64,000 nt of DNA, taken from NCBI RefSeq assembly GCF_000196875.2, contig NC_014532.2, forward strand, positions 3,038,001 to 3,102,000, given 5' to 3'. The notes under the pieces are model-generated. The model searched no databases and was not told where the DNA came from. It saw only the letters and a list, made by a program, of their open reading frames with translations. Positions within the stretch are counted from its first letter, which is position 1. The number at the start of each line of letters is the position of its first letter. Made by a program: the position numbers and the translations under genes. The DNA comes from Halomonas elongata DSM 2581. GTDB lineage: Bacteria > Pseudomonadota > Gammaproteobacteria > Pseudomonadales > Halomonadaceae. Positions 5,636 through 45,907 of this stretch are shown one piece after another.

Positions 5636-5783
5636 GGAGTCTCCGTAATTGAGCGTGGCGGCTGTCGCATCGGGAAGACGCGTGGGTCGCCATCGGGCGT
5701 CGCCCGACTCGAAACCGCGTCAGGGTACCGTGGCAGGAACGCCGGCGCCAGTAAATCGGCTCGTGGATGCAGCAGGCGTGGCG

Positions 5784-6938
5784 TCAGGACGACGCCACAG
5801 CCGGGTCGCACCGACGGGGAACGGCGGTGATCCGCCAGTCGTCACCGACGGCACGGATATCGCGGATATCCAGCGGTCGCTGCTCGTCCATGCGCGTCAA
5901 ACCCGGCAGTTCGAAAAGTGGCCGGGCCTCGCCGCCGAGCAGGGTCGGCGCCACGAACAGTTGCATCTCATCGACCAGGCCGGCATCCAGCATCGCACCG
6001 GCCAGGGTGGCGCCCGTCTCCAGAAGCACTTCATTGGCCTCCTCGTGACTGGCCAGATAGGACAACAGCGCTTCCAGATCGACACGACCGCCCTCTTCCG
6101 CCGGCAACACCACGACCTCGGCCCCGGCCTGCTCCAGCTTCTCACGATGCTCATCATCGTGCCCGTCCACCGTCGCCACCAGGGTACGCCCCGGTTCGCG
6201 CAGGCAGGCCGCCGCCAGCGGCAGGCGCAGGCGGGAATCCACCACCACGCGCATCGGCTGGCGGCTGGCGATCGCCTCGGCATTGTCCAGCTCGAGTTGC
6301 TCGGCGCGCACGGTGAGCCGCGAGTTGTCGAAGATGACCGATTCGACGCCGGTCATCACCACGCTCGAACGCGCCCGCAGGCGCTGAACCTCACGCCGGG
6401 CGCAGGGGCCGGTAATCCACTGGGACTCCCCGGAGCGCATCGCCGTGCGGCCATCGAGACTCATCGCCATCTTCATGCGCACGAAGGGACGCCCCCTGGC
6501 CATGCGCGCAATGAAACCGGAATTGAGCGCATGGGCCTCGGCTTCGAGCACGCCCTCCTCGACCTCGATGCCCGCCTGGCGAAGACGCTCGATGCCGCGC
6601 CCGGCCACCTGGGGGTTGGGATCACGCATGGCCACAACCACCCTGGCCACCCCAGCCTCGACCAGCGCCACCGCGCAAGGGCCGGTTCGCCCCTGGTGGG
6701 AACATGGCTCGAGGGTCACATAAGCCGTGGCACCCCGCGCCGCTTCCCCGGCGTTGCGCAAGGCATGGATCTCGGCATGGGGCTCGCCGGCACGCTCATG
6801 CCAGCCTTCGCCGATGACTCGCCCTTCCTTGACCAGGACACAACCGACACGAGGGTTGGGCGCGGTGGTATAGAGCCCATGGCGAGCCAGCCGGAGCGCG
6901 CGCGCCATCCAGCGTTCGGGCGGTGTAGGCGACATCAT
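5784..6938 (-). CDS. ribD: Bifunctional riboflavin deaminase/reductase RibD
   Basis: 384 residues. The N-terminal deaminase domain (about 1-145) has the zinc motifs HAEIHAL and [16 protein letters not shown]. The C-terminal reductase domain (about 150-375) begins [17 protein letters not shown] and continues with [17 protein letters not shown]. Together they deaminate and reduce the GTP-derived pyrimidine. The start overlaps the nrdR stop by four bases. The next gene downstream should by usual synteny be riboflavin synthase (ribE/ribC), but 148 bases later ribBA begins instead. Confidence 0.96.
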
Positions 6939-7420
6939 GATTCTCCCGATTCGTCCGGACGAAAACTGGGCTCCTGGGCCAGGCGATCGATTTCGGCGCG
7001 AAATTCATCGATGTCCTGAAAACTGCGATACACGGAAGCGAAGCGAATGTAGGCCACCTGATCGAGACGCTTCAGGGCATGCATCACCTCCTCGCCGACA
7101 TCCCGAGCATGCACCTCGCGCTCGCCTCGCGCCCTGAGGGTCTGGCGAATGCGCTCTACGGCAGCCTCGATGGACTCGGCGCTGACCGGCCGTTTTTCCA
7201 GGGCGCGAAGCATGCCGGCACGCAGCTTGCGCTCGTCGAAGAGCTCCCGGGAACCATCCGACTTGATCACCCGCGGCATGACGAGCTCGGCGGTTTCATA
7301 GGTGGTGAACCGCTCGCCGCAGCCCGCGCACTGACGACGGCGACGGACCTGATCGCCATCCGCTACCAGACGAGAATCGGTCACTCTTGTGTCATTGGCG
7401 CCGCAGAAGGGGCAGTGCAT
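6935..7420 (-). CDS. nrdR: Transcriptional repressor NrdR
   Basis: 161 residues. It is an ATP/dATP-sensing repressor of ribonucleotide reductase genes. The zinc ribbon is at the N-terminus ([13 protein letters not shown], then [12 protein letters not shown]), followed by an ATP-cone (about residues 49-139, beginning [18 protein letters not shown]). I chose the ATG at 7420, which places the zinc-ribbon cysteine at residue 3 as in the family, over an in-frame GTG three codons upstream. It is the first gene of the rib operon. Upstream lies the polysaccharide cluster rather than glyA, which neighbours nrdR in some gammaproteobacteria. Confidence 0.95.
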
Positions 7421-7555
7421 GGCGATCACCCGGCATCGATTTGAGGACGTGACGTGTCGCCGTATTGTAACGGCTTGGCGCCGAAGCGCCCAGTTGCGCG
7501 CTCGCCCCCAGCCATGTCACTGCATGGCCTGGACGATGCAAACCACATCGATCGA

Positions 7556-8560
7556 TCAGCAATACCCATCGGCATTCATCGACTGCCAACGCCAGGTATC
7601 CGCCATCATCTCATCCAGGGTTCTTTCGGCTGTCCAGCCAAGCTCATCTTTGGCCTTGGTCGCATCGGCCCAAAAACTGGCCAGATCTCCTGCTCGACGC
7701 TCGCCGAAGCGATATGCGATGTCCACCCCGGTGACCCGGGTAAAGCTGTTGACCATTTCCATGACCGAAATTCCCTTGCCGGTTCCCAGGTTATAGATCG
7801 ACACCCCTGACCGGCTCACCTGAAGCGCCTTGAGGTGCCCCACGGCCAGATCCACGACATGGAGATAATCTCTTTCGCAAGTGCCATCGGCCGTCGGATA
7901 GTCATTACCGAAAATCGTCAATTCCTCACGCCGGCCAACCGCCACCTGGGCAATGAAAGGCATCAGATTATTGGGAATGCCTCGAGGATCCTCACCAATG
8001 AGGCCGGATGGATGCGCACCGATAGGGTTGAAATAACGCAGTAGCGTCACCGACCAACTAGGGTCAGCATCGGCCAGGTCTTCCAGTACACGTTCGACCA
8101 TTCCCTTGGAAGTGCCGTATGGGTTGGATGTCGTCCCTCGCGGCATGTGCTCCAGATAGGGAACCGGAGCCTCGATACCGTACACGGTCGCCGAGGAACT
8201 GAAGACGATGCGATATACGCCTGCCGCCGCCATGGCCTGACAGAGCACCAGGGTGCCATTCACGTTGTTTTCGTAGTAGGCAAGTGGCTGCTCAACGCTT
8301 TCGCCGACTGCCTTGAGCCCGGCAAAATGAATCACGGCGTCGATCTCATGCTCGCCGAACACGCTATCCAGGGCATCGCGATCACGAATATCACACTCCA
8401 CGAAAGCGACGGGCTTTCCCGCAATGCGTTCGACCCGGGAGATCGCTTCCCGAGAGCCATTGCACAAGTTATCCACCACCACGTCGTGACCTGCCGCAAG
8501 CAACTCGACAACGGTATGTGATCCGATGTAGCCCGCGCCCCCCGTCACCAGAATTTGCAT
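7556..8560 (-). CDS. galE: UDP-glucose 4-epimerase
   Basis: 334 residues. It interconverts UDP-glucose and UDP-galactose using NAD. It has the Rossmann motif GGAGYIGSH at the N-terminus, SSATVYG with the catalytic serine, and YGTSKGMVE with the Y-x3-K pair. I placed the start at the ATG at 8560, right before MQILVTGGAGYIG. It lies last in the polysaccharide locus and supplies UDP-galactose to the neighbouring UDP-galactopyranose mutase. Confidence 0.96.
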   Translation of the reverse strand: MQILVTGGAGYIGSHTVVELLAAGHDVVVDNLCNGSREAISRVERIAGKPVAFVECDIRDRDALDSVFGEHEIDAVIHFAGLKAVGESVEQPLAYYENNVNGTLVLCQAMAAAGVYRIVFSSSATVYGIEAPVPYLEHMPRGTTSNPYGTSKGMVERVLEDLADADPSWSVTLLRYFNPIGAHPSGLIGEDPRGIPNNLMPFIAQVAVGRREELTIFGNDYPTADGTCERDYLHVVDLAVGHLKALQVSRSGVSIYNLGTGKGISVMEMVNSFTRVTGVDIAYRFGERRAGDLASFWADATKAKDELGWTAERTLDEMMADTWRWQSMNADGYC

Positions 8561-8595
8561 AAATTGTTCGCCTTTGTTCGGTCGTTCTTGCCGGC

Positions 8596-9984
8596 TCATC
8601 GAGCGTTGGGATGAAAGATGCCGCGCCATACTGTAAGAAAGAGAATCTTGAGATCCAGCCAGACCGACCAGTTATCGATGTACCAGAGATCATGCTCGAT
8701 GCGTGCTTTCAGATCCGTGTCCCCTCTCCAGCCATGCACCTGAGCCCAACCGGTAATACCCGCCTGCACCATGTGTTTCTGCATGTAACCGGGAATCTCG
8801 TGCTTGAATCGCTCGACGAAAACGGTACGTTCAGGACGAGGACCGACCAGCGACATCTCGCCCTTGACCACATTGATCAACTGCGGCAACTCATCGAGAC
8901 TGGCGCGTCGCAAAAAGCGTCCCACCGGGGTGGCCTGCTTGCCCTCCGCATTTCCCCAACTCACTCCATCACGCTCGCTATCCACCGCCATGCTGCGAAA
9001 CTTGAGCATCTGAAAGCGTCGCCCGTTCCAGCTCATTCGTTCCTGGCGATACAACACCGGCCCCCGCGATGTGAGCTTGACAGCGAGTGCAATGACCAAC
9101 ATCAGCGGCGACAGCAGGACCAGCGCCACTCCGGCTAGTAGCTTGTCCTCCATGAGCTTGATGAAACGCGCCCTTCCGCTCATGGGACTGCAACTCATAT
9201 CGAACGCATACAGCCCAGCCACCGTGGAGATATCATGATTCAGCAGGCGGATGCCCTGCATGTCCGGCATATAACGGATATTGCCGATGCAGTGATCTAG
9301 GTCGTTGAGCAGCCGCTCGACCAGGTTGCCCCGTGACAGCGGCAGGCACACCCAGATCTCGTCACAGGCCAGGCTGGCATCCGCCTCGCTGTCGAACGTG
9401 CGACAGTCATCGACGTTGAAACGCTCGCAGCCGCTGGCATCCATCAGGCGCACGGCTCGGATGTCGAAGCCCGCCGACGGCTGAGCGGTGATCTGTCGGT
9501 GCGCCCTCAGACAAGATTCCAGGTCACCGATCAGAATGACGCTCTTGCGGTTGCGGCCATGACTTCTCAACCGATTCAGCAATGGATAGGCAACAGTCCG
9601 AATGCCGACGCTCATGACGAAGGCACTGAGCAGCCACATCCCGAGCCATAGACGCGAGAACTCGGCCCCGGTCTTGGTGAAGTAGAGATACGTGAAGATG
9701 GTACCGCCCAGGATGACAAAAGCGTGCACGATCCTCACCACCAACTTGACACGCACCGCGCCACGCCAGGAACGATAGAGACCGCAAGAGCCGAAGATCA
9801 CCATACCCAGCAACATGCCGGACAACATCATCCACTGGTAACGCTCGACCATGCTTTCGAGAGAACCGAAACGCAGCCAGTAGGCCAGGAAGCCGCCGGC
9901 CAGTAACGAACACGCATCAGCGAAACGTGCCGCTATATGGGAATAGGCTTCGAAGCCCGAGAGAGTCTTGGCGGTTCTTGGCAT
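8596..9984 (-). CDS. Undecaprenyl-phosphate sugar phosphotransferase (WcaJ/WbaP-like)
   Basis: 462 residues, normal for the large polyisoprenyl-phosphate hexose-1-phosphate transferases. Four hydrophobic segments lie in the first ~130 residues, then a CoA-binding-like domain and, after a membrane hairpin near residue 285, the catalytic domain: GPVLYRQERMSWNG, FKFRSM-type LKFRSMAVDSERDG, SLDELPQLINVVKGEMSLVG, GPRPERTVF and GITGWAQVHGWRGDTD. It puts the first sugar phosphate (probably glucose or galactose) on undecaprenyl phosphate. One base separates it from the upstream GT2 gene. The sugar specificity cannot be read from sequence. Confidence 0.93.
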   Translation of the reverse strand: MPRTAKTLSGFEAYSHIAARFADACSLLAGGFLAYWLRFGSLESMVERYQWMMLSGMLLGMVIFGSCGLYRSWRGAVRVKLVVRIVHAFVILGGTIFTYLYFTKTGAEFSRLWLGMWLLSAFVMSVGIRTVAYPLLNRLRSHGRNRKSVILIGDLESCLRAHRQITAQPSAGFDIRAVRLMDASGCERFNVDDCRTFDSEADASLACDEIWVCLPLSRGNLVERLLNDLDHCIGNIRYMPDMQGIRLLNHDISTVAGLYAFDMSCSPMSGRARFIKLMEDKLLAGVALVLLSPLMLVIALAVKLTSRGPVLYRQERMSWNGRRFQMLKFRSMAVDSERDGVSWGNAEGKQATPVGRFLRRASLDELPQLINVVKGEMSLVGPRPERTVFVERFKHEIPGYMQKHMVQAGITGWAQVHGWRGDTDLKARIEHDLWYIDNWSVWLDLKILFLTVWRGIFHPNAR

Positions 9985-9985
9985 A

Positions 9986-10978
9986 TCAGGGATACCGCCT
10001 TGTCAGATCATCATGCGAACAACCCGGATGCCTGCGCAGGCCATCGCGAAATGCCTCCCCGCATAGCCTCAGATACCGCCGTTTCTGCGGGTAATGGCGC
10101 GCGGCCCACAGCCAGCTAAGCATCTTGACCGGTACGACCAATGGAAACCAGCCTCCCGCCGCAATTCGGTACATCACCAAGCCATTGCGATAAGCATAAA
10201 ATGCCTTCCATAGCGGCGTGATCCGGGCAGTACCTCGTAGATCAGCCGAGCAATCATGCACGAACCGCACGTGTGGCAGAAAGACATGACGCCCCCCAGC
10301 CTTGCGCAAGCTCAATGTGTAGATGACATCGTCGCCATAGATGAATAACTCGCCTCGCGGCAAGCCAATTCGCTCCACCGCTTCCGCACGTATGAAGCAC
10401 CCCACGAAGGAGGAAGAATCAATTTCCAGTGGCTTTCCTTCGACATAGTGACGATCCGCCAGATGAAACCCTTCACGGGCTCGACCGGTCAACGTGCCCA
10501 GCAGCGTTCGCCACAGCAGTCGCCCATGCCAGAACGGGTTCCAACTGGGCCGGTTCATTTCGCAGATGCCGCCATCCGGGTAGTAGACTGCTGCCGCAGC
10601 TCCATCGATATCACCCAGGTCCTGCTCCATGAAGGCACGAAGCGCATCAGGTGCCGGGCGCGCATCGTCGTCGAAACACACCAGCCAATCAGCCTGAAAG
10701 GTTTCGAGCGCTACCTTGAAACCAAGTTCGAAACCTCCGGCTCCTCCCAGGTTGCGTTCGGGGGTCACCACTTCGAGACGCGGCTCATCCAGGCTGGCCA
10801 GCCATTCCCGACTGCCGTCGGTGGAACCGTTATCCACCACCACCAGCCCGGCAACAGGCTCATCAAGCACCGCCGCAATGCCCTGCTTGAGATGCTCGCA
10901 ACGATTAAAGGAAACGATGACGGCCACCAGCCGGATGGAGGCCGGTGGCGGCATCGGGGTCGTCTTTTTGTCAGCCAT
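9986..10978 (-). CDS. Family 2 glycosyltransferase, possibly a galactofuranosyltransferase
   Basis: 330 residues. A GT-A fold is seen from VAVIVSFNRCEHLKQGI, VVDNGSTDGSREWL and WLVCFDDDARPAPDAL, whose DDD is the nucleotide-sugar/metal motif. The middle has a segment SSFVGCFIRAEAVERIG and GDDVIYTLSLRKAG typical of the GlfT1/rhamnosyltransferase-like subgroup. Because glf is immediately upstream (17 bases), transfer of galactofuranose from UDP-Galf is the likeliest role; this is context inference. A GTG nine bases further upstream is an alternative start. It is soluble or peripheral, with no clear membrane segment. Confidence 0.85.
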   Translation of the reverse strand: MADKKTTPMPPPASIRLVAVIVSFNRCEHLKQGIAAVLDEPVAGLVVVDNGSTDGSREWLASLDEPRLEVVTPERNLGGAGGFELGFKVALETFQADWLVCFDDDARPAPDALRAFMEQDLGDIDGAAAAVYYPDGGICEMNRPSWNPFWHGRLLWRTLLGTLTGRAREGFHLADRHYVEGKPLEIDSSSFVGCFIRAEAVERIGLPRGELFIYGDDVIYTLSLRKAGGRHVFLPHVRFVHDCSADLRGTARITPLWKAFYAYRNGLVMYRIAAGGWFPLVVPVKMLSWLWAARHYPQKRRYLRLCGEAFRDGLRRHPGCSHDDLTRRYP

Positions 10979-10995
10979 TCCGTCCACTATATGGC

Positions 10996-13238
<2,243 letters not shown>

Positions 13239-13241
13239 AAG

Positions 13242-15167
13242 TCACCTAAAAGCCTTTCCCGAAAACCAAAACTTCGCCTTTCGGTACACATACAAAGACC
13301 TAAAATAAAACTTACTCAAGACCATTCTCCCACGGCTACCGTGAGGAAAAGCTTTATTAAAAAACGGTTTCAAAAAACTGCGAAACCTTTCTTCTTTGCT
13401 CAAAGATTTTTTTGGAACTTCATGCACAACTTTTTTATCATGCAGCTTTCCGGTAACAAGGGTGCTGACACGCTCTTCATACCAAGGCGTCCCTCGTAGT
13501 GCATTCCAATACATATCAGAAAAGTCTACGCTTGGATTATTCCAAGGTTTCTGGTCGCCAGCATAATGAACCATGGAAGGGTTCTTGCGCGCTTCCAGGA
13601 ACTCGGAAAATGTAGAAAAATTCAGCCCTGGAAAGAAATCAAAAGTATTACCATTTCCATGAAAAACATTCCAACTCAGCGGTAGATACCTGACTCTTCC
13701 TTCGAAAACCTTGTTCATGATATCTTGATCAAGAAACCAATAAGGCTTTAACCTCAGCGCCTCCATAAGATGATCAAAAGTACCTTCCTCTCTCATCTTA
13801 TCGAGATTAAACATGATCAACCCTGCCTGAAAGTACCCCACCCCATCTTTCAGTCCAAGATAGTCTGTCAAATAGTCCCTGGCTTCCAGAGCCCCTGTAT
13901 GATGATCTGAAATCGCCTTAAACTTGACGAAGCCTTCCATCACGATATCTTTTACCGCAGCAACAAGATTGTCTTCGAGATCGACATCAAACAGGTTCGC
14001 AATATCATCATTGACTACAGTATCCGCATCAATGAATAGAACCTTTTCTTGCTCTTTAAAGACTTGAGGTATAAAAAGCCTAGCATATGTGGCAGGACTA
14101 AAATGCGCTCTGGTATGAACGTCTTTTATTTCATCAAAAGCGTTTATATTAAAAAATCTTATATTGAAATTATCGCAACCATCAAACAGGCTCTTCAATC
14201 TCGCTTTATTTCTGTTCGATACCCCATTCTCCAGAACAAGGATATCGTAATTCTTATCGGGATTAGCGTTATTCTTTATCGAATTAAGGAGCGCGCCGCC
14301 GGAGTGCGAGTAATTATCATCAAAACATATAACAACCGGGTGATTATTTTCACCATACCAAGGGACAACCCCACCATTGAACCCTTCCTTAGATAGAAAA
14401 GTTCTACCGACTTCTTTTATATTTAACCCTTCATTCCGCTTCTTCGTGAAATAAATCCCAAGCAGTCGTTCTGAAATATGGCCAAAAACACGACTCTGCT
14501 GTTGGTTATAGCCTTGCAAGGAGAGCTTATCCTCCAGCTCATCCAGGATATCAAACAGCCACCGAGAGTAGTCGTCAAAAATGTCGCGTTTCATCACGAA
14601 CATATTTGTATAATAACCCAACGGACTACCATTGTACTCTTTTACTGCATCATAAAAATCCGGATGCTGTTTAAGCAGGGCATTCACAGCTTCCTGATAA
14701 TCACTTATAAATAAATCAGGCGAATTCCCATAATGCTCATAGTTGTTTTTACTTCCTGCATTTCTCACATCCCACTTTTCAGGAAGAATGACATCACAAT
14801 TACCAAGCTTTTCAAGCACGGCATCTCTATTTAATCCATGCTTGGCTTGGTAAGCCTCATCCAGTTCCTCTTCTACAATGACACCCCACTGATCTCTCCT
14901 GAAACCATCGGGTTCAGAAAAGCTCAAATGCCTTCGGTAATGCATCAAGCCAACATAATCAGAGGTAAGATCATTCTTCCATATCCAATACTGAGCTGTC
15001 AGCTCGCAATAATACGGGTTTTTCAGGGAAATATTACAGCCAGTGTCATCCCCTCTGCAGCCAATATCGTTGTAGCTATTTGCCTTTCCAACGTGGATAG
15101 GGCAAAAAACACTATCAGCAAGAAAAGCACTTTCTTTATGGTGGCATGTATAAATACTAATTTCCAT
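13242..15167 (-). CDS. Two-domain glycosyltransferase: DUF4422 plus GT8, AT-rich gene
   Basis: 641 residues. The N-terminal part (about 1-240) is DUF4422-like: DDTGCNISLKNPYYCELT, YWIWKNDLTSDYVGLMHYRR and a PYY/Wxx pattern typical of that family, often found in polysaccharide loci. The second part (about 265-560) is glycosyltransferase family 8: HPVVICFDDNYSHSGGALL, then KVLFIDADTVVNDDI with the D-x-D motif, and YFQAGLIMFNLDKMREEG. The C-terminus is basic. The ATG at 15167 is preceded in frame by a GTG. The gene is AT-rich like its downstream neighbour, which suggests joint transfer. It probably adds two sugars, or one domain serves binding. Confidence 0.83.
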   Translation of the reverse strand: MEISIYTCHHKESAFLADSVFCPIHVGKANSYNDIGCRGDDTGCNISLKNPYYCELTAQYWIWKNDLTSDYVGLMHYRRHLSFSEPDGFRRDQWGVIVEEELDEAYQAKHGLNRDAVLEKLGNCDVILPEKWDVRNAGSKNNYEHYGNSPDLFISDYQEAVNALLKQHPDFYDAVKEYNGSPLGYYTNMFVMKRDIFDDYSRWLFDILDELEDKLSLQGYNQQQSRVFGHISERLLGIYFTKKRNEGLNIKEVGRTFLSKEGFNGGVVPWYGENNHPVVICFDDNYSHSGGALLNSIKNNANPDKNYDILVLENGVSNRNKARLKSLFDGCDNFNIRFFNINAFDEIKDVHTRAHFSPATYARLFIPQVFKEQEKVLFIDADTVVNDDIANLFDVDLEDNLVAAVKDIVMEGFVKFKAISDHHTGALEARDYLTDYLGLKDGVGYFQAGLIMFNLDKMREEGTFDHLMEALRLKPYWFLDQDIMNKVFEGRVRYLPLSWNVFHGNGNTFDFFPGLNFSTFSEFLEARKNPSMVHYAGDQKPWNNPSVDFSDMYWNALRGTPWYEERVSTLVTGKLHDKKVVHEVPKKSLSKEERFRSFLKPFFNKAFPHGSRGRMVLSKFYFRSLYVYRKAKFWFSGKAFR

Positions 15168-15202
15168 CACAAATTCTCAATCACCCAAAAAACAAAAACA
15201 GA

Positions 15203-15853
15203 TCAAAGCTCAATTTTCCGCTCACAAATCCTATCCACTTGCGCTTGCGAATGTGATACAAGCAGAACAGTCTGGTCCGAGTGAATCTTACTCATCATCT
15301 CTTTTTCTGCCTTTTCCTTGAACTGCTTATCGCCTACGCTCAACACTTCATCCAGAAGCAGGACATCAGGCGTCATATACATGGCCACTGAAAAACCCAG
15401 ACGAGCCCGCATCCCCGAAGAATACGTTTTGACCGGCTCATCCATGAAGTTACCGAGTTCCGAAAATTCAGCAATATCATTCAGCTTCTTTTCCACTTGT
15501 CTTCGGGTATATCCCATCAACATACCACTGAGGATAGCATTGTCGGTACCAGGCAGCTCAGCATCGAACCCAGCCTGCAAAGCTAGCAAGGAGACGGTGA
15601 CACCATGGTTGATGACTTCGCCACTATCCGGTTGAATGATACCGGCAACGACTCGTAGCAGAGTCGATTTTCCAGCACCATTTCGCCCCAGAATCCCCAG
15701 GGTTTCTCCCCTATGTACATCGAAGTTCAGCCCTTCCAGGGCCTGGAAATATTCCGGTTTTTGAAACAGCCCACCGCGTCGCTTATAGCGAACGCCCACA
15801 TTCCGAAGGGAGATGATGACCTCTCCCCTGTTTTCTGATACTGCATCACTCAT
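15203..15853 (-). CDS. ABC transporter ATPase for polysaccharide export (Wzt/KpsT type)
   Basis: 216 residues. Walker A is GRNGAGKST; the signature is YSSGMRARLGFSVA, characteristic of Wzt/KpsT/TagH exporters; Walker B is DVLLLDEVLSVGD. The length shows the short form without the C-terminal carbohydrate-binding domain that Wzt of O9a-type systems carries. It should power export of the finished, lipid-linked polymer across the inner membrane with the permease encoded just upstream. I chose the ATG at 15853, which makes a four-base ATGA overlap with the permease stop, over longer in-frame starts inside that gene. Confidence 0.93.
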   Translation of the reverse strand: MSDAVSENRGEVIISLRNVGVRYKRRGGLFQKPEYFQALEGLNFDVHRGETLGILGRNGAGKSTLLRVVAGIIQPDSGEVINHGVTVSLLALQAGFDAELPGTDNAILSGMLMGYTRRQVEKKLNDIAEFSELGNFMDEPVKTYSSGMRARLGFSVAMYMTPDVLLLDEVLSVGDKQFKEKAEKEMMSKIHSDQTVLLVSHSQAQVDRICERKIEL

Positions 15854-38389: not shown

Positions 38390-39460
38390 TCATAGCTGGA
38401 AGGGCATACGGAAGGTCAGGCTGATGTCGGACGCGTCATCGGTCAGACCGATGCCCAGGTTGGTCACGATGGAAGTCGAGTCGTTCAAAGCATAGGTACC
38501 GCCGATATTGAAGACACCGACATTGGCATCACTGTCGATGACCTTGCTGGTACTGCCATTGGAAGTGATCTCAGATTTGCGAATATGCTCGTGGGAGTAG
38601 GAAAGCGCCAGGCTGAGTCGCTCATTGAGCGCGAAGGCCGTACCGAAACCGACCTGGATACTGTCGCCCAGGTCAACATCGCCGGGTTGATCGCCCGAGG
38701 ATGCCGAAATATCGTCGAAGGATTCCTCGAAATTGTAGGTATATCCCAGACTACCGAAGACGATGGCCGGATCCAGCGTCTTGAGTAGCGATACACTGGT
38801 TGTCGCCGCCCAGACGCCATTACCGGTAGGCAGCTCGGTCGGCACTATCAGATTCGTGTTGTCGTCCTCGCGCAGACCGATGCCGTAAGGATCCTTGCCG
38901 GTCGGCGCACGAACCCCCGCACTGATCACGACATCGGGACGTGTCGGGGTTTCCGGCAGCAATCGATAGGATAATGTCGCCGAAATATCGCCCAATGCCG
39001 CTTCATCGACATTCACTTCGCTTTCCCGCTCCGTGGAAAGATCATCGCCGATGGACTGATAGGTCGTGCTGCGATACACGAAAGGTATCGTCACCCCCAA
39101 CTCCAGGCGGTTGGAGAAGCCATAGCGCATGTTGAGATCGAAGGTGGTGATATGCGTTTCCACCCCGTCCAGGTTCAATTCTCCCAAAAAGATCGCATCC
39201 AGGGCGAGAAAGCCCCTCAGCGCCAGTTTGGAACGATCGGAATAGGAGTAATTGATGCTCGGCTCGATGGAGAACCGATTATCGAACAGGGTATGCTCCT
39301 CGCGCAGCACGTCTTCAACGCTCTTGCTGGGTCGCGCCTCGCGAACGACCCCACCGTCACCTTCTTGTGCCACGGCCGGTGTGGCCGAGAGCCCCGCAAT
39401 GCCGATGGCGACCAGGCTCCATTTCACCCTTGCTTCCTGGGCTGACATATTATTATTCAC
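38390..39460 (-). CDS. Outer-membrane beta-barrel protein in the FapF position
   Basis: 356 residues. I chose a GTG at 39460 because AAGGAGG precedes it by six bases; a longer ATG start lacks a ribosome site. Signal peptide with cleavage after ATPAVA (about residue 31), a short helical part (SVEDVLREEHTLFDNRF), then alternating beta strands ending in phenylalanine/leucine (LTFRMPFQL), the mark of outer-membrane barrels. Phrases such as NRLELGVTIPFVYRST and the GVRAPTGKDPYG-like turn resemble the porin-like Phenol_MetA_deg family. In Pseudomonas fapF, last gene of fapABCDEF, encodes the barrel that secretes amyloid subunits; the equal position suggests the same role here. Confidence 0.7.
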   Translation of the reverse strand: MNNNMSAQEARVKWSLVAIGIAGLSATPAVAQEGDGGVVREARPSKSVEDVLREEHTLFDNRFSIEPSINYSYSDRSKLALRGFLALDAIFLGELNLDGVETHITTFDLNMRYGFSNRLELGVTIPFVYRSTTYQSIGDDLSTERESEVNVDEAALGDISATLSYRLLPETPTRPDVVISAGVRAPTGKDPYGIGLREDDNTNLIVPTELPTGNGVWAATTSVSLLKTLDPAIVFGSLGYTYNFEESFDDISASSGDQPGDVDLGDSIQVGFGTAFALNERLSLALSYSHEHIRKSEITSNGSTSKVIDSDANVGVFNIGGTYALNDSTSIVTNLGIGLTDDASDISLTFRMPFQL

Positions 39461-39594
39461 GATCACCCTCCTTCCCCTCGGAATATGATCCCAGGCATAC
39501 CATTCGAGCACCCCGCCGGATGTCGGGGCATGCCTTCCTGAATCAGCCTAGTAGTCCCTGGAAAATTAGTTCGCCCACCTCTTTTACGGTGTCT

Positions 39595-40392
39595 TCAACG
39601 ACGCAATTGCGAAGCCATCCTCATGGCACTTCTGATCCCCATCGATCGCTCTATCGTCGGCCGATTGTTCATGTAGAGTTGCAGGCGAGTCAGGTTATGC
39701 ACCCGCTGCAGGCTGCTGGACAGCTGGATACGCTGATGCAGCCCCTGCCCCGGCAGGATTGCCTGTGATACATGGCCGATTCCAGGCACCTTCATGTCGA
39801 CACTGAAGTCGTTGCCCGACGCACTGACCGCGACGCGTGTCCCCGAGGTCAAGTGCCGCTCGACGCGAGAAACGCCTGCCGACCCCGTCGGCACGGAAGT
39901 GCCGGCGGCATCCAGGATATCGACCTGCAACTCGTTGGCCGCCGTGTTGAAATCCCCCCCGGCCTGGATCGACTGCACGACCCCTCTGGCATTGGGCGTC
40001 CCGCCATCGACCACGACGGCGCCATTGCCCACCGAAGCCGCCAGGCCGGGCCCGTCGACCACCGAAATGACGGGCTCGAACGAGACACGTGGCGTGCCGC
40101 CACTGAGATCGCCCATCACCCCCGCCCTGGCCCGGATATGCTCACCGGCGGCCGTTCGCCATTCACTCGACATCTGCACCCCGAAGTACATGAGCCGCCC
40201 TCGATCCACGAAGCGCCCTCGCATGATGCTCAGTTCATCATCACTGAGCTGCCGGGCCTCGGAGAACGGCTCGAAGCTCGAGGTAGCCGCCTGGGCCGAA
40301 GGTATGCCCGCTTGCGACATCGCCAACAGCAGCGGCGTGGAGAAAGCTAAAATACGCCAGGTATTCGTGCCCCTTTTATATTTGCCGATCAT
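39595..40392 (-). CDS. FapE-like secreted protein of the amyloid operon
   Basis: 265 residues. Sec signal peptide (hydrophobic about 12-28, cleavage near PSAQA-A, residue 35). Directly after, LSDDELSIMRGRF (residues 49-61) and VDRGRLMYFGVQMSSEW (62-78). The rest is beta-rich with many glycines, and a C-terminal part QRIQLSSSLQRVHNLTRL. Position between the C39 peptidase and barrel genes matches fapE, a minor component of Pseudomonas Fap fibres. The first motif resembles double-glycine-type leader motifs (see findings). Function inferred from context only. Confidence 0.6.
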   Translation of the reverse strand: MIGKYKRGTNTWRILAFSTPLLLAMSQAGIPSAQAATSSFEPFSEARQLSDDELSIMRGRFVDRGRLMYFGVQMSSEWRTAAGEHIRARAGVMGDLSGGTPRVSFEPVISVVDGPGLAASVGNGAVVVDGGTPNARGVVQSIQAGGDFNTAANELQVDILDAAGTSVPTGSAGVSRVERHLTSGTRVAVSASGNDFSVDMKVPGIGHVSQAILPGQGLHQRIQLSSSLQRVHNLTRLQLYMNNRPTIERSMGIRSAMRMASQLRR

Positions 40393-40437
40393 GACCGTAT
40401 CCCCTTGAGTGACATACCAAACCGACGAGCCCGCAGC

Positions 40438-41166
40438 TCAGAACAGCTCGGCGTGCCGAAAACCGAAATCGATCAGTTGGTCTCGCGGTGCTGGAGAGAA
40501 GACGTCCTGCAGACGATGCGCGGTCAATGGCTGACGCGGATCGAGCAGGACCGTATAACGGTCATAACCTTCCCCCACCACGGCAAAGATGATGTTGTTC
40601 CACGCAGTCATGAAGTCGTCGCGCGACATCACGCGATTGCCCAGCGCCGGATCACCGACGTAGACGCGATCCCCCCGAGCCTTCTTCATCACCACGAAAT
40701 GCTTGTAGCCTTCCAGATCGAGCAGCACGATCACCGGAATCGATATTTCATCCAGCGTATCGGGATCGACCTCATAGCCACGTCCTCGGTATCCGTTCGT
40801 TTCCACATAGCGCTTCAGGTCAAGCAAAGAAAAGCCGCGCTGACGCACGACTTCGGGATCGGATACTTCGAGCATGCCCGCCAGGACATCATTCTCGGTG
40901 ATTTCCGCACGGCCATAGGCATACTTGAGTACCGTGGCCAGGGCCGCGGCCCCACAGGAAAAATCGGTATGCTGTTCGACCAGGTCCTCGTAACGCCTCT
41001 CGCGTATGGATTGGACGTCCTTGCGTACCATGGTGTCGGACAGGACATTGCCCAGGCTCATGCTGGCTGCCAACGCCATATCGGCAGATGCCACGCTGAT
41101 ACAGATGCCCGTCACCATCGCCGTGAATAGCCGCAAACGCTTGAAACTCATGCGCTTGAAATTCAT
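40438..41166 (-). CDS. fapD: C39-family cysteine peptidase, FapD-like
   Basis: 242 residues. I took the ATG at 41166, with GGGAG ten bases before. A signal peptide or anchor at about 10-34 (cleavage near ALAA) places it in the periplasm. The C39 site is complete: Gln65 and Cys71 in VEQHTDFSCGAAALATVLKY, His156 in GYKHFVVMKKARG and Asp172 in VYVGDPALGNRVMS. In Pseudomonas FapD is needed for Fap export, and it lacks the ABC transporter parts of bacteriocin C39 proteins, as here. It stands third in the BCDEF order. Confidence 0.88.
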   Translation of the reverse strand: MNFKRMSFKRLRLFTAMVTGICISVASADMALAASMSLGNVLSDTMVRKDVQSIRERRYEDLVEQHTDFSCGAAALATVLKYAYGRAEITENDVLAGMLEVSDPEVVRQRGFSLLDLKRYVETNGYRGRGYEVDPDTLDEISIPVIVLLDLEGYKHFVVMKKARGDRVYVGDPALGNRVMSRDDFMTAWNNIIFAVVGEGYDRYTVLLDPRQPLTAHRLQDVFSPAPRDQLIDFGFRHAELF

Positions 41167-41230
41167 GGTGCGCTCCCGGTACCCCATCGCCGGAGACACG
41201 CTGGCAGCGTCGCCCGACGAAGAATAGAGT

Positions 41231-41257
41231 CTCCCGACCCGCATCGCGGGTCGGGAG
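41231..41257 (-). other. Strong hairpin between the FapC-like and FapD-like genes
   Basis: A perfect 12-bp stem (CTCCCGACCCGC and complement) with a three-base loop, in the 140-base gap between the two genes. It is not followed by T residues on the minus strand (ACTCTATTC), so it is more likely an mRNA processing or stabilising element, or a partial terminator, than a full stop. It could raise the amount of FapC over downstream products. Confidence 0.7.
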
Positions 41258-41306
41258 TGTTGACCTGTCATCACATCTCGCTGGAGGTCATGCAGCGACG
41301 AGCGAA

Positions 41307-42515
41307 TTATTCGCTGCCGCCACCAGCCCCGCCACCTGCGGCGGACGATGCAATGGACAGGGAGTTGCGCTGCAGGTTGTTGGTACCGGCGGCGACGTTG
41401 ACGCCGATGTTGCCGACCGCACCACGCAGGGCGTTGCCGCCCAGCTCGGCGTTGTTCTCGTTGGCCACGTACACGGTATTGGTCGCCGTGACGCTACCGG
41501 AGAGCGTGCCGCCCATGGCCATCAGGCCCGCTTCGCGGAAGCCCAGCCGGCCACGATATTGCCCTTCTGTGGTGCCGTCCTCGTTGAAGGCAAAGGCCCC
41601 GCCATCACCATTGAGGTCCTGGGCAAATTGTGCATCGGAGTCAACGTCGATGTGGCCGGTAGAAGTCCCTCCGGTATGCGTTGCACCACTCCAGGTATCC
41701 AGATAGACATCACCAATCTGGTCGGACTGGCCGGTATACGTGCCATTGTAAGTACCGGACTCACGACCGCGACCGACACCGGCATAGCCGCCCACCATCA
41801 CACCGGACACCGTAACGTCAGTGGTGTTGGTGAAGGTCTCGGTATGGCCACTATTGGCGGTGTGGTTGCCATAAGTGGTCTGTACTCCACCGGTCGTGGC
41901 ATCAGCCGAGCCGCTGGAGGTATTGACCGCAGCCGCCAGGCTGTTCTGCTGGCCATTGCCGACACCGGCGGCAACGTTCACCCCAATGTTGCCGCTGGCG
42001 CCAAGCAGAGCGTTGCCACCCATGCGAGCGTTGTTCGGGCTGCCACTGTTGATGGTCACGTTGTTCGAGCTGGACTGAGCCGAGAAGGCAGCAGCCTGAC
42101 CGAACACACGAGCCGCATCCGAAGCGGCAAGTGCCGCATCATTGGCTTGCTGGTTGTTGTCGCCCGCCGCCACGTTGACGCCGATATTACCGGCGGCATT
42201 GCGCAAGGCATTGCCATCCAGGTCGGCGTTGTTGGTGGAGACGGTATTATCGACACCGTTGCCATTGATCAGCTGCTTGCTGTCCACGGTGGCACCGGCA
42301 TAGTTGGGATCACTGGTCCGCACCCTGACATCGACCTTGAAGTCCTTGTAGGTATCGCTGTCATGGTTGAGTTCGACATCGATGTTGTTATCGAACTTGG
42401 AATCGATCTCGCTATCGGTATCGAAGTCATTGCCCGAGTTCCAGGCAAATGCCGCGGGAGCAGCCATCAGTGCGGCGACAGCCAGAGCGAGCGGAGCTTT
42501 TTGGAATGTTTTCAT
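41307..42515 (-). CDS. fapC: FapC-like functional amyloid subunit
   Basis: 402 residues. A signal peptide (1-24, APAAFA cleavage) then an acidic, Asp-rich segment. Three imperfect repeats share NxAxxxGNALxxAxGNIGVNVAAGxxNxQxN at about residues 95-125, 161-191 and 354-384; GNIGVNVAAG is identical in all three. Linkers are about 35 and 160 residues, the second rich in G, T, S and N. This is the build of Pseudomonas FapC, whose repeats form the cross-beta core. Unlike Pseudomonas FapC it contains no cysteine, so no C-terminal CxxC. AGGAGAAGG precedes the ATG at 42515. Confidence 0.85.
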   Translation of the reverse strand: MKTFQKAPLALAVAALMAAPAAFAWNSGNDFDTDSEIDSKFDNNIDVELNHDSDTYKDFKVDVRVRTSDPNYAGATVDSKQLINGNGVDNTVSTNNADLDGNALRNAAGNIGVNVAAGDNNQQANDAALAASDAARVFGQAAAFSAQSSSNNVTINSGSPNNARMGGNALLGASGNIGVNVAAGVGNGQQNSLAAAVNTSSGSADATTGGVQTTYGNHTANSGHTETFTNTTDVTVSGVMVGGYAGVGRGRESGTYNGTYTGQSDQIGDVYLDTWSGATHTGGTSTGHIDVDSDAQFAQDLNGDGGAFAFNEDGTTEGQYRGRLGFREAGLMAMGGTLSGSVTATNTVYVANENNAELGGNALRGAVGNIGVNVAAGTNNLQRNSLSIASSAAGGGAGGGSE

Positions 42516-42568
42516 GGTCCTTCTCCTGAATGAGCCGTTGTAATGCATTTTTTGCTTCTTGATTTACG

Positions 42569-43234
42569 CTACTGCCCCAGCGCCATGTTCATGCGGAAGC
42601 TGTTGCGCGTAGCGTTTCCCTTACCGGCTGACTGGTTGACCTGAATCACCCCGCGAGCACCGCCGAAGGTCGTGTTGTCTATCTCGACCCTGCGACTGGC
42701 GTCCTCGGCGGAATCATCACCGCCACCGTTCAGCCCCTGCTGACTCGCCAGCACCTGTTGCAGGTTCCTGTCATCCAGGCTGCTGACGTTGATGCCCAGA
42801 GCCATGCCGAATGCATTGCTCTGCACATTTCCTTGACCCGCCGCCTGATTGATCGACATCCAGCCGCTCGCCTGACGGAAGGCCTTGTCCTGTATCTGCA
42901 CGTCGTTCTGCAGGCTGATCAGGCTCTCGTCGATACGCGCCTGCTGAACCAGTTGACCGGACGTGCTGGACGCTCTCCCGATGGATAGAGCGCCGCTGTT
43001 GGCTTGCCGGTTACCTTCCCCGGCCGCCATGTTGGTATTCGCCACGCCACTGACATGGCTCAGGGCACCGCCCTGGAGAACCGTGCTGTTGCGTAGCCCG
43101 ATGTCCTGGGCATCGGCCGTATCGAAACCGGCCATCATCAGCCCCAGGCAAGTGGCGAAGAGCGTGTGCCGCACGAGAGCTCGCGCTTCGAGACGCCCGG
43201 CCATCGGTTGAGGTGTCGCGATGAGTCGCAGCAT
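42569..43234 (-). CDS. fapB: FapB-like repeat protein
   Basis: 221 residues. Signal peptide with cleavage near TADA-Q (about residue 42). Three looser repeats at about 49-80, 110-140 and 186-211 share the ending hNxxAGxGNxxxN (ANTNMAAGEGNRQAN, SINQAAGQGNVQSN, QVNQSAGKGNATRN). FapB is a nucleator for FapC in Pseudomonas and has similar repeats. It follows the preceding gene by two bases and is 54 bases before fapC. The identification rests on the repeat pattern and order. Confidence 0.75.
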   Translation of the reverse strand: MLRLIATPQPMAGRLEARALVRHTLFATCLGLMMAGFDTADAQDIGLRNSTVLQGGALSHVSGVANTNMAAGEGNRQANSGALSIGRASSTSGQLVQQARIDESLISLQNDVQIQDKAFRQASGWMSINQAAGQGNVQSNAFGMALGINVSSLDDRNLQQVLASQQGLNGGGDDSAEDASRRVEIDNTTFGGARGVIQVNQSAGKGNATRNSFRMNMALGQ

Positions 43235-43236
43235 GA

Positions 43237-43779
43237 TCAGCGCTCCCCCGTGAGAGGCGACAATGCGCCTTTGACGGTATCGGCCAGCCCCGAAGTGATA
43301 CCGACCACGCCACCACCTACCGAGCCGCCGCCAAGGCTACCCGCAGCCTGCCCGGACCTGGCGGCGCTCGAGTACCCCGACGCATCGGTCCCAAGCCCCC
43401 GATGCAACTGGGGCATTCCCAGGCTCTTGCCACTGCTGATCCCCGCCGCCCGCGCATCGGTCAAGGCCACGGCCCTGACACCGGAAAGCTGGCGCTGCGT
43501 CTCCTGCGTTACCGTTTCATTGAGCTCGGTATTGCGACGCAGATCCGCCCGGGCCCTGATCGGCCCGCCGACACGGTCCGACTGGCCAAAGGCCGCCGGC
43601 TCGACCTCGCGCAGGATGATCACCTCGCCAGGCCTGACCCCGGGGCGAAGATTCTGCTGCCCCAGGGCCTCCTCGACTCCCGGGCCCACCAGCATTGCTG
43701 CGACCATGCCGACTGCCCCCAGCACGATTCGCCCCCTCACGACACGGACGGTGCTGCTTGTCATCCCCTGCGTTGTCAT
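43237..43779 (-). CDS. Secreted protein in the FapA position
   Basis: 180 residues from the ATG at 43779 (AGGTG six bases before). A hydrophobic signal segment is at about 17-37. The mature part has PGVRPGEVIILREVEPAAFG, a polar helical middle (RADLRRNTELNETVTQETQR), and a glycine/serine-rich tail (SGQAAGSLGGGSVGGGVVG). FapA of Pseudomonas is a small chaperone-like protein encoded first in the operon. Here the gene stands just before the FapB-like gene, so the same role is possible but not shown by sequence. Confidence 0.55.
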   Translation of the reverse strand: MTTQGMTSSTVRVVRGRIVLGAVGMVAAMLVGPGVEEALGQQNLRPGVRPGEVIILREVEPAAFGQSDRVGGPIRARADLRRNTELNETVTQETQRQLSGVRAVALTDARAAGISSGKSLGMPQLHRGLGTDASGYSSAARSGQAAGSLGGGSVGGGVVGITSGLADTVKGALSPLTGER

Positions 43780-43791
43780 GTCGTTCACCTG

Positions 43792-44139
43792 TTATTTATT
43801 GTCTCGTTGACTCATGGTGTGGTTACGCTGCAGGTTGCCAGCGCCTTCCATCAGTTGTGCTTGCCCGCCACGATCGACGCCCCCCGCATCGTGTCCGGGA
43901 CGTTCATCCCAGAGGATGACCTGCCCCGCGCGCCGCACCTGCCATTCCGGCGTATAGCGCCCCTGGATCCCGTCGAGAGCTTCGTTCGTCAGCGCCACCT
44001 GGTGCACGGACGCCGACTGCTCGAACACCTCGGGTATTTCCGGACCACGCTGTTCGGCCGCGACGCTCGATGCCATGCCCAGTCCCGCGAGGACGGCATA
44101 CCGCCATAGCCAGCACGTCTTGCGAACTCGATGAGTCAT
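43792..44139 (-). CDS. Small secreted protein opening the amyloid-like operon
   Basis: 115 residues from the ATG at 44139 (GAGGA site). Signal peptide with cleavage near SSVAA (about residue 28). It then contains ALTNEALDGIQGRY (49-62), which aligns with LSDDELSIMRGRF of the FapE-like protein, and near the C-terminus MEGAGNLQRNHTM (97-109), which recalls the repeat ending AAGTNNLQRNSLSI of the FapC-like subunit. It is the first gene after the sigma-54 promoter. No family is recognised. It could be a minor fibre subunit, a cap, or a target of the C39 peptidase. Confidence 0.65.
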   Translation of the reverse strand: MTHRVRKTCWLWRYAVLAGLGMASSVAAEQRGPEIPEVFEQSASVHQVALTNEALDGIQGRYTPEWQVRRAGQVILWDERPGHDAGGVDRGGQAQLMEGAGNLQRNHTMSQRDNK

Positions 44140-44189
44140 GGTGGTGTCCTCGCATCTGCCAGGGTCCAGCATCGTGTCTCCTTGTATGG

Positions 44190-44205
44190 AGCAAGGAGTG
44201 TGCCA
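44190..44205 (-). promoter_or_regulatory. Sigma-54 promoter of the amyloid-like operon
   Basis: On the minus strand TGGCACACTCCTTGCT (44205-44190) against the consensus TGGCACG-N4-TTGCW: the GG and GC dinucleotides have the exact spacing and only one of the other conserved bases differs. Transcription would start near 44179, giving a 40-base leader before the ATG at 44139. A sigma-54 activator gene is the next gene upstream. Confidence 0.88.
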
Positions 44206-44406: not shown

Positions 44407-44434
44407 GACGCCCGCCGAGAAAATGGCGGGCGTC
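44407..44434 (-). terminator. Hairpin after the sigma-54 activator gene
   Basis: A perfect 10-bp stem, GACGCCCGCC paired with GGCGGGCGTC, loop of eight. It lies 50 bases past the activator's stop and would insulate the operon promoter from read-through. The T-rich part (CCTTTTCCCC) is some 14 bases downstream, so termination may be incomplete. Confidence 0.6.
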
Positions 44435-44482: not shown

Positions 44483-45907
44483 CTACAGGTGTGCCGAGGA
44501 GGTTGATCTCCCAAGCCCACTTGCCGACTCCCCCGGTGAGCGGGGAATGCCATGCTTGTTGAGCAATCGATACATCGTGACGCGCGACACACCGAGTTCG
44601 GCAGCGGCAGGATGAATTCGATACTTGTTGCGCGCCAGGGCTGCCAGCAGGGAATCGCGCTCGGCACGCTCCCGCGCTTGCTCCAGCGTCAGCACATGAC
44701 GATGGATACGGCGACGCTCGATGCCCAGGTCCTCGGGCTGAATCAGCCGACCTTCGCACATCACCATCGCGCGCCTCACCCGGTTGATCAGTTCACGGAC
44801 ATTGCCCGGCCAGGCATATTGCTGCATCACAGCGAGCGATTCTCGGGAGAAGCCCTTCAGGCATGCCGGCTTGTCGCCGGCAAAGCGCTTGAAGAAGAAG
44901 TGGGCCAGAATCTCGATATCTTCGGGATGCTCCCGCAATGCAGGCACCGTGATCTGCAGGACATTGAGTCGGTGGTAGAGATCTTCACGAAAGCGCCCTT
45001 CGTCGACGGCCTTGGCGAGATCGACATGGGTGGCGGCAAGAACCCGCACATCCACGCTGATCTCGTTCAGTCCACCGACGCGTTGCAAGCGTCGCGTCTC
45101 GAGAAAGCGCAGCAGGTTGACCTGGAGCTCCAGAGGCAGATCCCCGATCTCGTCGAGAAACAGCGTGCCTCCACTCGCGGCCTCGATACGCCCGATCTTG
45201 CGCTGCCCGGCTCCTGTGAAGGCTCCCTTCTCGTGGCCGAACAGCTCGGATTGAATCAGATTATCGGGCAAGGCGCCGCAGTTGATCGCATGGAAGGGCC
45301 CGTTTGCCCTGGGAGAACGTTCGTGAATCGCCTGGGCGGTCAGTTCCTTGCCGGTACCCGACTCGCCATGAATGCAGACGGAAGCATCCACTGCTGCAAT
45401 CTTGCGAATCGTCTTGAACAACTGCCACATGGCCGGCGTGGTGCCGACCATCTCATACTCGCCCGAATCCGCACCCGCCTCGGTCGCAGCCTGCTTCTGA
45501 GACTCGCTCTCCCGTCGTTGCAGGCGCATCAGGTCGGCCGCTGTCCATAACAACCCCTCGATCCGGTCGGCATCCACGGGCTGCATCGCATAGCCCAGGC
45601 AAAGATTGATGATCAGCCGACGCGTATCGCCATCGGCCAGTCCCGACTCGTCCACCAGGCCGATCCATGGGCAACGGCTCTTGATCATCGAGGCCTCGAG
45701 TCGCCGCAGCTCATCGGACGACAGGGCATCGAGCATCATGAGCCCCACCTCGTTCTCCGTGACATGTTCATGGCAGCAACAGACGCCGGATGACTCGAAA
45801 ATAGTGTCGTTATGTACCTGCCAACCGCGTTGTCGCAACGTATCGCCAAGTGACGCGTCCCGGTCACTATCCCTGCAGAACAGCCTCACACTTGCTGGAG
45901 ACTCCAT
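44483..45907 (-). CDS. Sigma-54-dependent transcriptional activator
   Basis: 474 residues. The N-terminal part (about 1-125) has the strand pattern of a receiver-like domain ([33 protein letters not shown]) and resembles VpsR-type activators. The AAA+ domain spans about 150-390: Walker A GESGTGKE (181-188), the sigma-54 contact loop GAFTGA (228-233), Walker [11 protein letters not shown] Fis-type helix-turn-helix ends the protein ([20 protein letters not shown]). There is no sensor kinase gene beside it. Location suggests it drives the adjacent amyloid-like operon in response to a small molecule or phosphorylation. Confidence 0.93.

Follow-up and report, generated by a model that had tools for sequence, protein, structure and literature searches.

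A Fap operon of Halomonas elongata with a seventh gene, and a candidate FapD leader common to its product and FapE

Which of the Fap proteins is cut by the C39 peptidase FapD is the question raised by a fap operon of Halomonas elongata DSM 2581, which we analyzed within a stretch of 64,000 nt (NC_014532.2; hereafter the window, with all coordinates given as positions in it). Fap secretion cannot do without FapD activity, and the catalytic Cys of FapD is needed for the secretion of FapC (PMC5557850); the substrate of FapD has been called unclear or undetermined, and Fap proteins are described as devoid of canonical C39 sequences (PMC5557850, PMC6173800), while a 2025 review gives FapE and FapF as its presumed substrates (PMC12822426). 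In the window, the operon g1-fapA-fapB-fapC-fapD-fapE-fapF occupies 38390-44172 on the minus strand, downstream of a sigma-54 activator gene (44483-45907). FapE and the product of the extra gene, g1, are otherwise dissimilar and both carry the leader [LIVM]x4[LM]xx[LIM]RG[RK]^[YF], where ^ marks the predicted cut. Our best explanation of the locus, which we regard as likely, is a complete seven-gene Fap operon in which FapD would mature both FapE and g1. The genes and the two leaders are as follows.

43792..44139, minus strand: g1 (open reading frame (ORF) readable from 44172), with a signal peptide, a C39-type leader, a conserved [V/I]ILWDERPG segment, a Gly-rich linker and a C-terminal GxxNxQ half-repeat
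43957..43992, minus strand: leader of g1, LTNEALDGIQGR, residues 50-61, from motif conservation; predicted FapD cut R61/Y62
43237..43788, minus strand: FapA, predicted periplasmic chaperone (NCBIfam NF058617, 1.2e-4, under the cut-off; conserved position)
42569..43234, minus strand: FapB, minor/nucleating amyloid subunit with three repeats (NCBIfam NF058557, 3.6e-27)
41307..42515, minus strand: FapC, major amyloid subunit with three repeats (NCBIfam NF058558, 1.8e-55; AlphaFold model compared with 9u4u)
40438..41166, minus strand: FapD, Sec-exported C39 peptidase (NCBIfam NF058616, 1.4e-82)
39595..40392, minus strand: FapE, minor extracellular component (NCBIfam NF058559, 3.2e-34)
40213..40248, minus strand: leader of FapE, LSDDELSIMRGR, residues 49-60; predicted FapD cut R60/F61
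38390..39511, minus strand: FapF, outer-membrane beta-barrel secretion channel (NCBIfam NF058560, 3.3e-112; PDB 5o65, 7.9e-85)

When the leader was compared in about 100 relatives, it was found in 97 of 98 unique FapE ORFs, the sole miss being a fragment of a broken gene, and in 29 of 44 g1 sequences; none of FapA, FapB, FapC, FapD, FapF and the regulator had it, and it was present in 12 of 10,710 other ORFs and in 0.5% of shuffled FapE. In the FapE columns, position -12 is Leu, Val, Ile or Met, -10 is Asp (85/97), -8 is Glu (82/97), -7 is Leu or Met (97/97) and -4 is mostly Leu, Met or Ile; Arg at -3, Gly at -2 and Arg/Lys at -1 are each found in 97/97, followed by Tyr or Phe at +1 (91/97). 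R58 and G59 are among the 11 residues invariant in 64 FapE sequences, with RG at that column in 64/64, and the g1 variants without Arg/Lys retain the -12, -7, -4 and -2 positions. The FapE leader occurs in Pseudomonas too; in a further phylum-wide sample of FapE, which has a few genomes in common with the first, the motif was present in 16 of 18 sequences, and the other two have the near-variants LADDELSDMHGKF and VDDDVLATQTGKY. In the AlphaFold model of FapE, for which a fold search gave no significant PDB match, the leader forms a helix (residues 51-62) just ahead of a beta domain starting at residue 66, so that cleavage at 60/61 would set this domain free. Neither g1 nor this leader came up in a literature search, although reports beyond the reach of the search are possible.

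The published C39 leader consensus is L(-12)xxxE(-8)L(-7)xxxxG(-2)G(-1) with a helix from -10 to -4 (PMC6959990, PMC6363468), and in the column counts both FapE and g1 have the hydrophobic residues at -12, -7 and -4 and the Gly at -2; these, together with Glu at -8, are also the features of leaders handled by PCAT/AMS transporters (ComA, PCAT1, and LahT substrates). What is new in the leader is Arg/Lys at -1, which is found also in most g1, in place of the Gly/Ala/Ser of C39 leaders and the Gly of PCAT/AMS double-glycine leaders, from which FapE and g1 further differ in the aromatic residue at +1. Unlike the PCAT/AMS systems, furthermore, FapD is a free periplasmic enzyme with Sec-exported substrates. 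The RG(R/K) leader would hence resemble a double-glycine leader in its working without being one. Q65, C71, H156 and D172 of FapD are invariant in the family alignment, and its closest relative in the PDB is LahT (6mpz), a double-glycine motif protease. The residue six positions ahead of the catalytic His is acidic in most fap-type FapD proteins and more often Asn in RGG-type peptidases; that the acidic residue might face the P1 Arg/Lys is a weak lead. In proteomics, complete N-terminal processing was seen for FapE alone among the Fap proteins, and catalytic FapD is required (PMC5557850). We thus consider that FapD probably cuts FapE after RG(R/K) and, with somewhat less assurance, that g1 would be a second substrate.

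The prediction of the leader was tested on 20 FapD-like loci fetched afterwards. All of the non-Fap loci with a FapD score >200 (9/9) encode an RGGF protein next to the peptidase, another locus proved to be a partial Fap locus with g1, and the chance rate of the motif was about 2 in 1080 ORFs. Also, many halomonads, but not the window genome, hold a second C39/FapF system, in which the peptidase has beside it a long LRGGF protein and, in many cases, a short RG[RK]EG protein, with the motif in the same register. Such loci (L057 6820-12855; L046, L047, L048, L051, L055-L061, L115, L119, L123, L125, L128 and L132) contain a sigma-54 activator, a FapF-like barrel, a C39 peptidase, a long RGGF protein and a short RG[RK] protein, and L057 also has a Gly-rich protein of 395 aa. 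With the fap operon, the second system and Fil-type loci share the sigma-54 activator, the FapF-like barrel, the periplasmic C39 peptidase and the long and often short leader proteins; the differences are the GG leader of the long protein, another, Gly-rich putative fibre protein and a FapF only about 33% identical. The second system is possibly another fibre system. In L266 (4169-4519), a secreted-looking protein of 116 aa with LNENQMDSVTAGY, another spacing of the C39 leader type, is encoded near a distant FapD-like peptidase.

Alternatively, RG(R/K) might serve FapE structurally or target it to FapF, and be no site for FapD, with g1 docking on the same channel. The helix 51-62 beside the beta domain in the FapE model could be such a docking element, and the N-terminus of FapE has been suggested as a FapF targeting signal (Rouse et al., PMC5557850). 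In spacing and residue classes, however, the segment is a C39 leader, and it accompanies C39 peptidases as canonical GG in the non-Fap loci. Furthermore, halomonad FapF, including that in the window, is devoid of the periplasmic coiled coil and linker of Pseudomonas FapF, as judged from N-terminal lengths (about 57-105 residues ahead of the barrel, signal peptide and over-long starts included, versus about 133 in Pseudomonas), yet the leader is still kept in FapE and g1. A targeting element is for these reasons unlikely, and cleavage of FapE by FapD remains the reading that we prefer.

The seventh gene, g1, has no match in Pfam or NCBIfam, and its homologues are first or nearly first in most halomonad fap operons; g1 is a conserved seventh fap gene there and in several other gammaproteobacterial lineages. 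Homologues were also found in Methylohalomonas, Amphritea, Marinobacterium, Acidiferrobacterales, further gammaproteobacterial genomes and one Oryzomicrobium. In the protein, which carries invariant residues, the signal peptide and leader are followed by a conserved V-x-LWDE segment, then by a Gly-rich stretch and lastly by a GxxNxQ tail; the tail is present in 34 of 44 g1 sequences, versus 4% of shuffled tails, and resembles half of a FapB/FapC repeat. That g1 is a diverged FapA was rejected, given that g1 and FapA occur together as neighbours and hit distinct profiles; a full FapC repeat in g1 was rejected on hidden Markov model (HMM) scores that are too weak, and the idea that g1 tracks the loss of the FapF coiled coil was rejected with the occurrence of g1 beside long FapF.

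An ordinary Fap operon in which g1 is a lineage-specific accessory outside fibre assembly would fit the standard operon and its order, as well as the fap operons of Pseudomonas, Vreelandella, Porticoccaceae and others, which do without detectable g1. None of the Pseudomonas loci examined yielded g1, and when Pseudomonas and the remaining loci without g1 were scanned for LWD or for loose leaders, nothing emerged except in L136, which has a g1 copy with an LWDE segment and no leader in its reading frame. Against an accessory, g1 occurs on the FapD tree not only in halomonads and Oceanospirillaceae but also in deep branches, and is usually first, directly behind a sigma-54 promoter, besides having its invariant residues. 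In that tree, which has a midpoint root only, g1 is distributed over the deep branches and several separated clades, with at least nine changes, suggesting that g1 was present early and then lost repeatedly. We find an accessory outside fibre assembly improbable.

Several points nonetheless weigh against FapE and g1 as the substrates of FapD. The gap in the proteomic coverage of FapE (PMC5557850) reaches about residue 70, whereas in Pseudomonas the cut is predicted earlier, near residue 40, and the C39 cleft has been described as very narrow and double-glycine-specific, whereas the predicted P1 here is Arg/Lys. The motif was found in 0/9-10 of the distant FapD-like loci (score <170); as RGGF is present in the near loci and absent from the distant ones, the motif follows this branch of C39 peptidases. 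In terms of g1, its absence from some loci could be missed homology, its half-repeat is short with weak HMM scores, and a single GxxNxQ pattern is insufficient to make g1 an amyloid.

Some loci show other arrangements of fap genes. In L102 (Halomonas sp. NO4, 5655-15600; the same region as L041), g1-fapB-C-D-E is duplicated in tandem with a single fapF. L056 (G005, 7316-9345) is a fap remnant, with g1 and a 97-aa fapF fragment beside an intact activator and the other fap genes gone. In L040 (G084, 8218-12087), fapD and fapE were not detected and fapB is shortened, between intact g1-fapA and fapC-fapF, which might serve as a natural test of the loss of FapD and FapE. The order in L137, from a metagenome-assembled genome of Rhodospirillales and putatively alphaproteobacterial, is fapC-fapB-fapC-fapD-fapE-fapF.

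It was proposed in 2017 that the conserved target of FapD is the linker of FapF or GG/GA sites within FapE, and Pseudomonas FapF indeed has GG/GA motifs and missing linker peptides (PMC5557850). The FapF option fails to generalize because the linker region, like the coiled coil, has been lost in halomonads, and FapE has no conserved GG/GA position (22/64 at best) in contrast to RG in 64/64; we have accordingly rejected the linker as a general target and GG/GA as the cut site in FapE, and consider either very unlikely.

The assignment of the operon itself is firm. The preliminary description of this DNA had proposed seven leftward genes forming a Fap-like amyloid operon with an extra leading gene, and had expected stacked repeats on structure prediction, all of which agrees with our results. 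The ORFs were found in place, g1 is first, and six of the seven products, FapA to FapF, match NCBIfam Fap models, FapF also matching crystallized FapF. All matches fall under the curated equivalog cut-offs, FapC being nearest (188.9 versus 195), and by this rule the proteins are Fap homologues and not Pseudomonas equivalogs. From sequence reading and profiles, FapB and FapC have three imperfect repeats each. The repeat columns of FapC are invariant in 57 FapC sequences, and its AlphaFold model, made from 57 relatives, shows the same strand pattern three times with a predicted local distance difference test score of about 80-88 over the repeats; the top PDB match of this model, a prediction only, is the cryo-electron microscopy structure of FapC, 9u4u (probability 1.00, TM by target 0.56). 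The operon shares with Pseudomonas fapABCDEF the order of its six homologous genes, the three repeats of both FapB and FapC, a catalytic FapD, a FapF barrel and the FapE leader; Pseudomonas fap differs in having no g1, in the coiled coil and linker of FapF, and in its activator being downstream and not upstream. Close loci are those of Halomonas eurihalina and H. elongata. That the system is curli, or some other kind of amyloid or pilus, has a negligible chance, since the weak matches of FapD and FapF to Fil pilus models are outscored by a wide margin by the Fap models for FapB to FapF and no curlin family or CsgG/CsgA-type protein is among the Pfam and NCBIfam matches of the operon proteins. 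Fap membership is thus about as certain as sequence allows; the operon belongs to the known Fap kind and is no new amyloid class. Two statements of the preliminary description were too strong: low identity to Pseudomonas, as profiles recognize every gene except g1, and the best candidate for something undescribed, as 1602 Fap clusters are already listed in GTDB (PMC12822426). The same review treats the Fap operon as fixed, with six genes or five.

Upstream of g1, three features were noted.

44190..44205, minus strand: predicted sigma-54 (-24/-12) promoter, TGGCACACTCCTTGCT, TGGCAC-N5-TTGCT, by motif match
44407..44434, minus strand: 10-bp perfect hairpin 3' of the activator gene, inverted repeat GACGCCCGCC/GGCGGGCGTC, putatively a terminator
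44483..45907, minus strand: sigma-54-dependent activator with a VpsR-type N-terminal domain, an AAA+ core and a Fis-type helix-turn-helix (Pfam Sigma54_activat 1e-69, VpsR 1e-8, HTH_8 2e-6)

The promoter is the sole perfect match in the 64 kb, with 0.04 expected, and perfect or one-mismatch sites precede nearly all g1-bearing halomonad operons, which bears out the sigma-54 promoter noted earlier for this DNA. An own regulator had also been proposed: a sigma-54 activator is indeed upstream of the operon, but neither it nor the promoter is peculiar to this genome, as a VpsR-domain sigma-54 activator adjoins fap in most loci examined, Pseudomonas included. In most Pseudomonas loci (L142-L177), C/TGGCAC-N5-CTGCT is fixed at about -68 from fapA and a VpsR-domain sigma-54 activator is convergent with fapF; these suggest that fap there is also under sigma-54 control. 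In Vreelandella-type operons, g1, the promoter and the adjacent activator are all missing together. Of the 201 halomonad genomes sampled, about 25 have a close FapF (at least 58% identity). One clade of halomonads has the activator and operon exactly between a GNAT-type gene and ftsB, which are directly adjacent, about 65-140 bp apart, in genomes without fap at this site, and the interruption of the ftsB neighbourhood described before is thereby corroborated; other halomonads have fap at different sites, with the activator after fapF and convergent. In L183 (G111), the GNAT-type gene of the ftsB locus is followed by an activator gene although no FapF match was found in the genome, and this may be an orphan activator.

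Gene identities, the promoter, the conservation of g1 and the leader are read directly from the DNA and its relatives; as to cleavage and the secretion and role of g1, we infer the following scheme. The adjacent VpsR-type activator would turn on the sigma-54 promoter, and Sec would carry all seven products over the inner membrane, where FapA would hold FapB and FapC in soluble form. The periplasmic FapD would recognize the leader helix on the pro-proteins FapE and g1 and cut after R-G-R/K, and mature FapE and g1 would exit via the FapF barrel together with FapB and FapC, which would stack into the fibre. Mature g1, with about 54 residues comprising the VILWDERPG segment and the GxxNxQ half-repeat, would most likely be a starter, cap or anchor on the fibre, although this fibre-associated role is a guess.

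In conclusion, a new Fap component, g1, has been defined, together with a motif that predicts the cargo of related C39/FapF loci that have no assigned function. FapE has a candidate cut site, exact to the residue and present in nearly all FapE sequences examined, Pseudomonas included, which makes the question of what FapD cuts testable by single point mutations. In a broader sense, periplasmic C39 peptidases and FapF-type barrels may constitute a secretion class that matures Sec-exported pro-proteins that carry a C39-type leader with R-G-(G/R/K) at the cut, with FapE and g1 as the Fap substrates and g1 probably ancestral and lost in Pseudomonas, a proposal toward which we lean slightly. If it is true, the model organism would be without a part of the machine.

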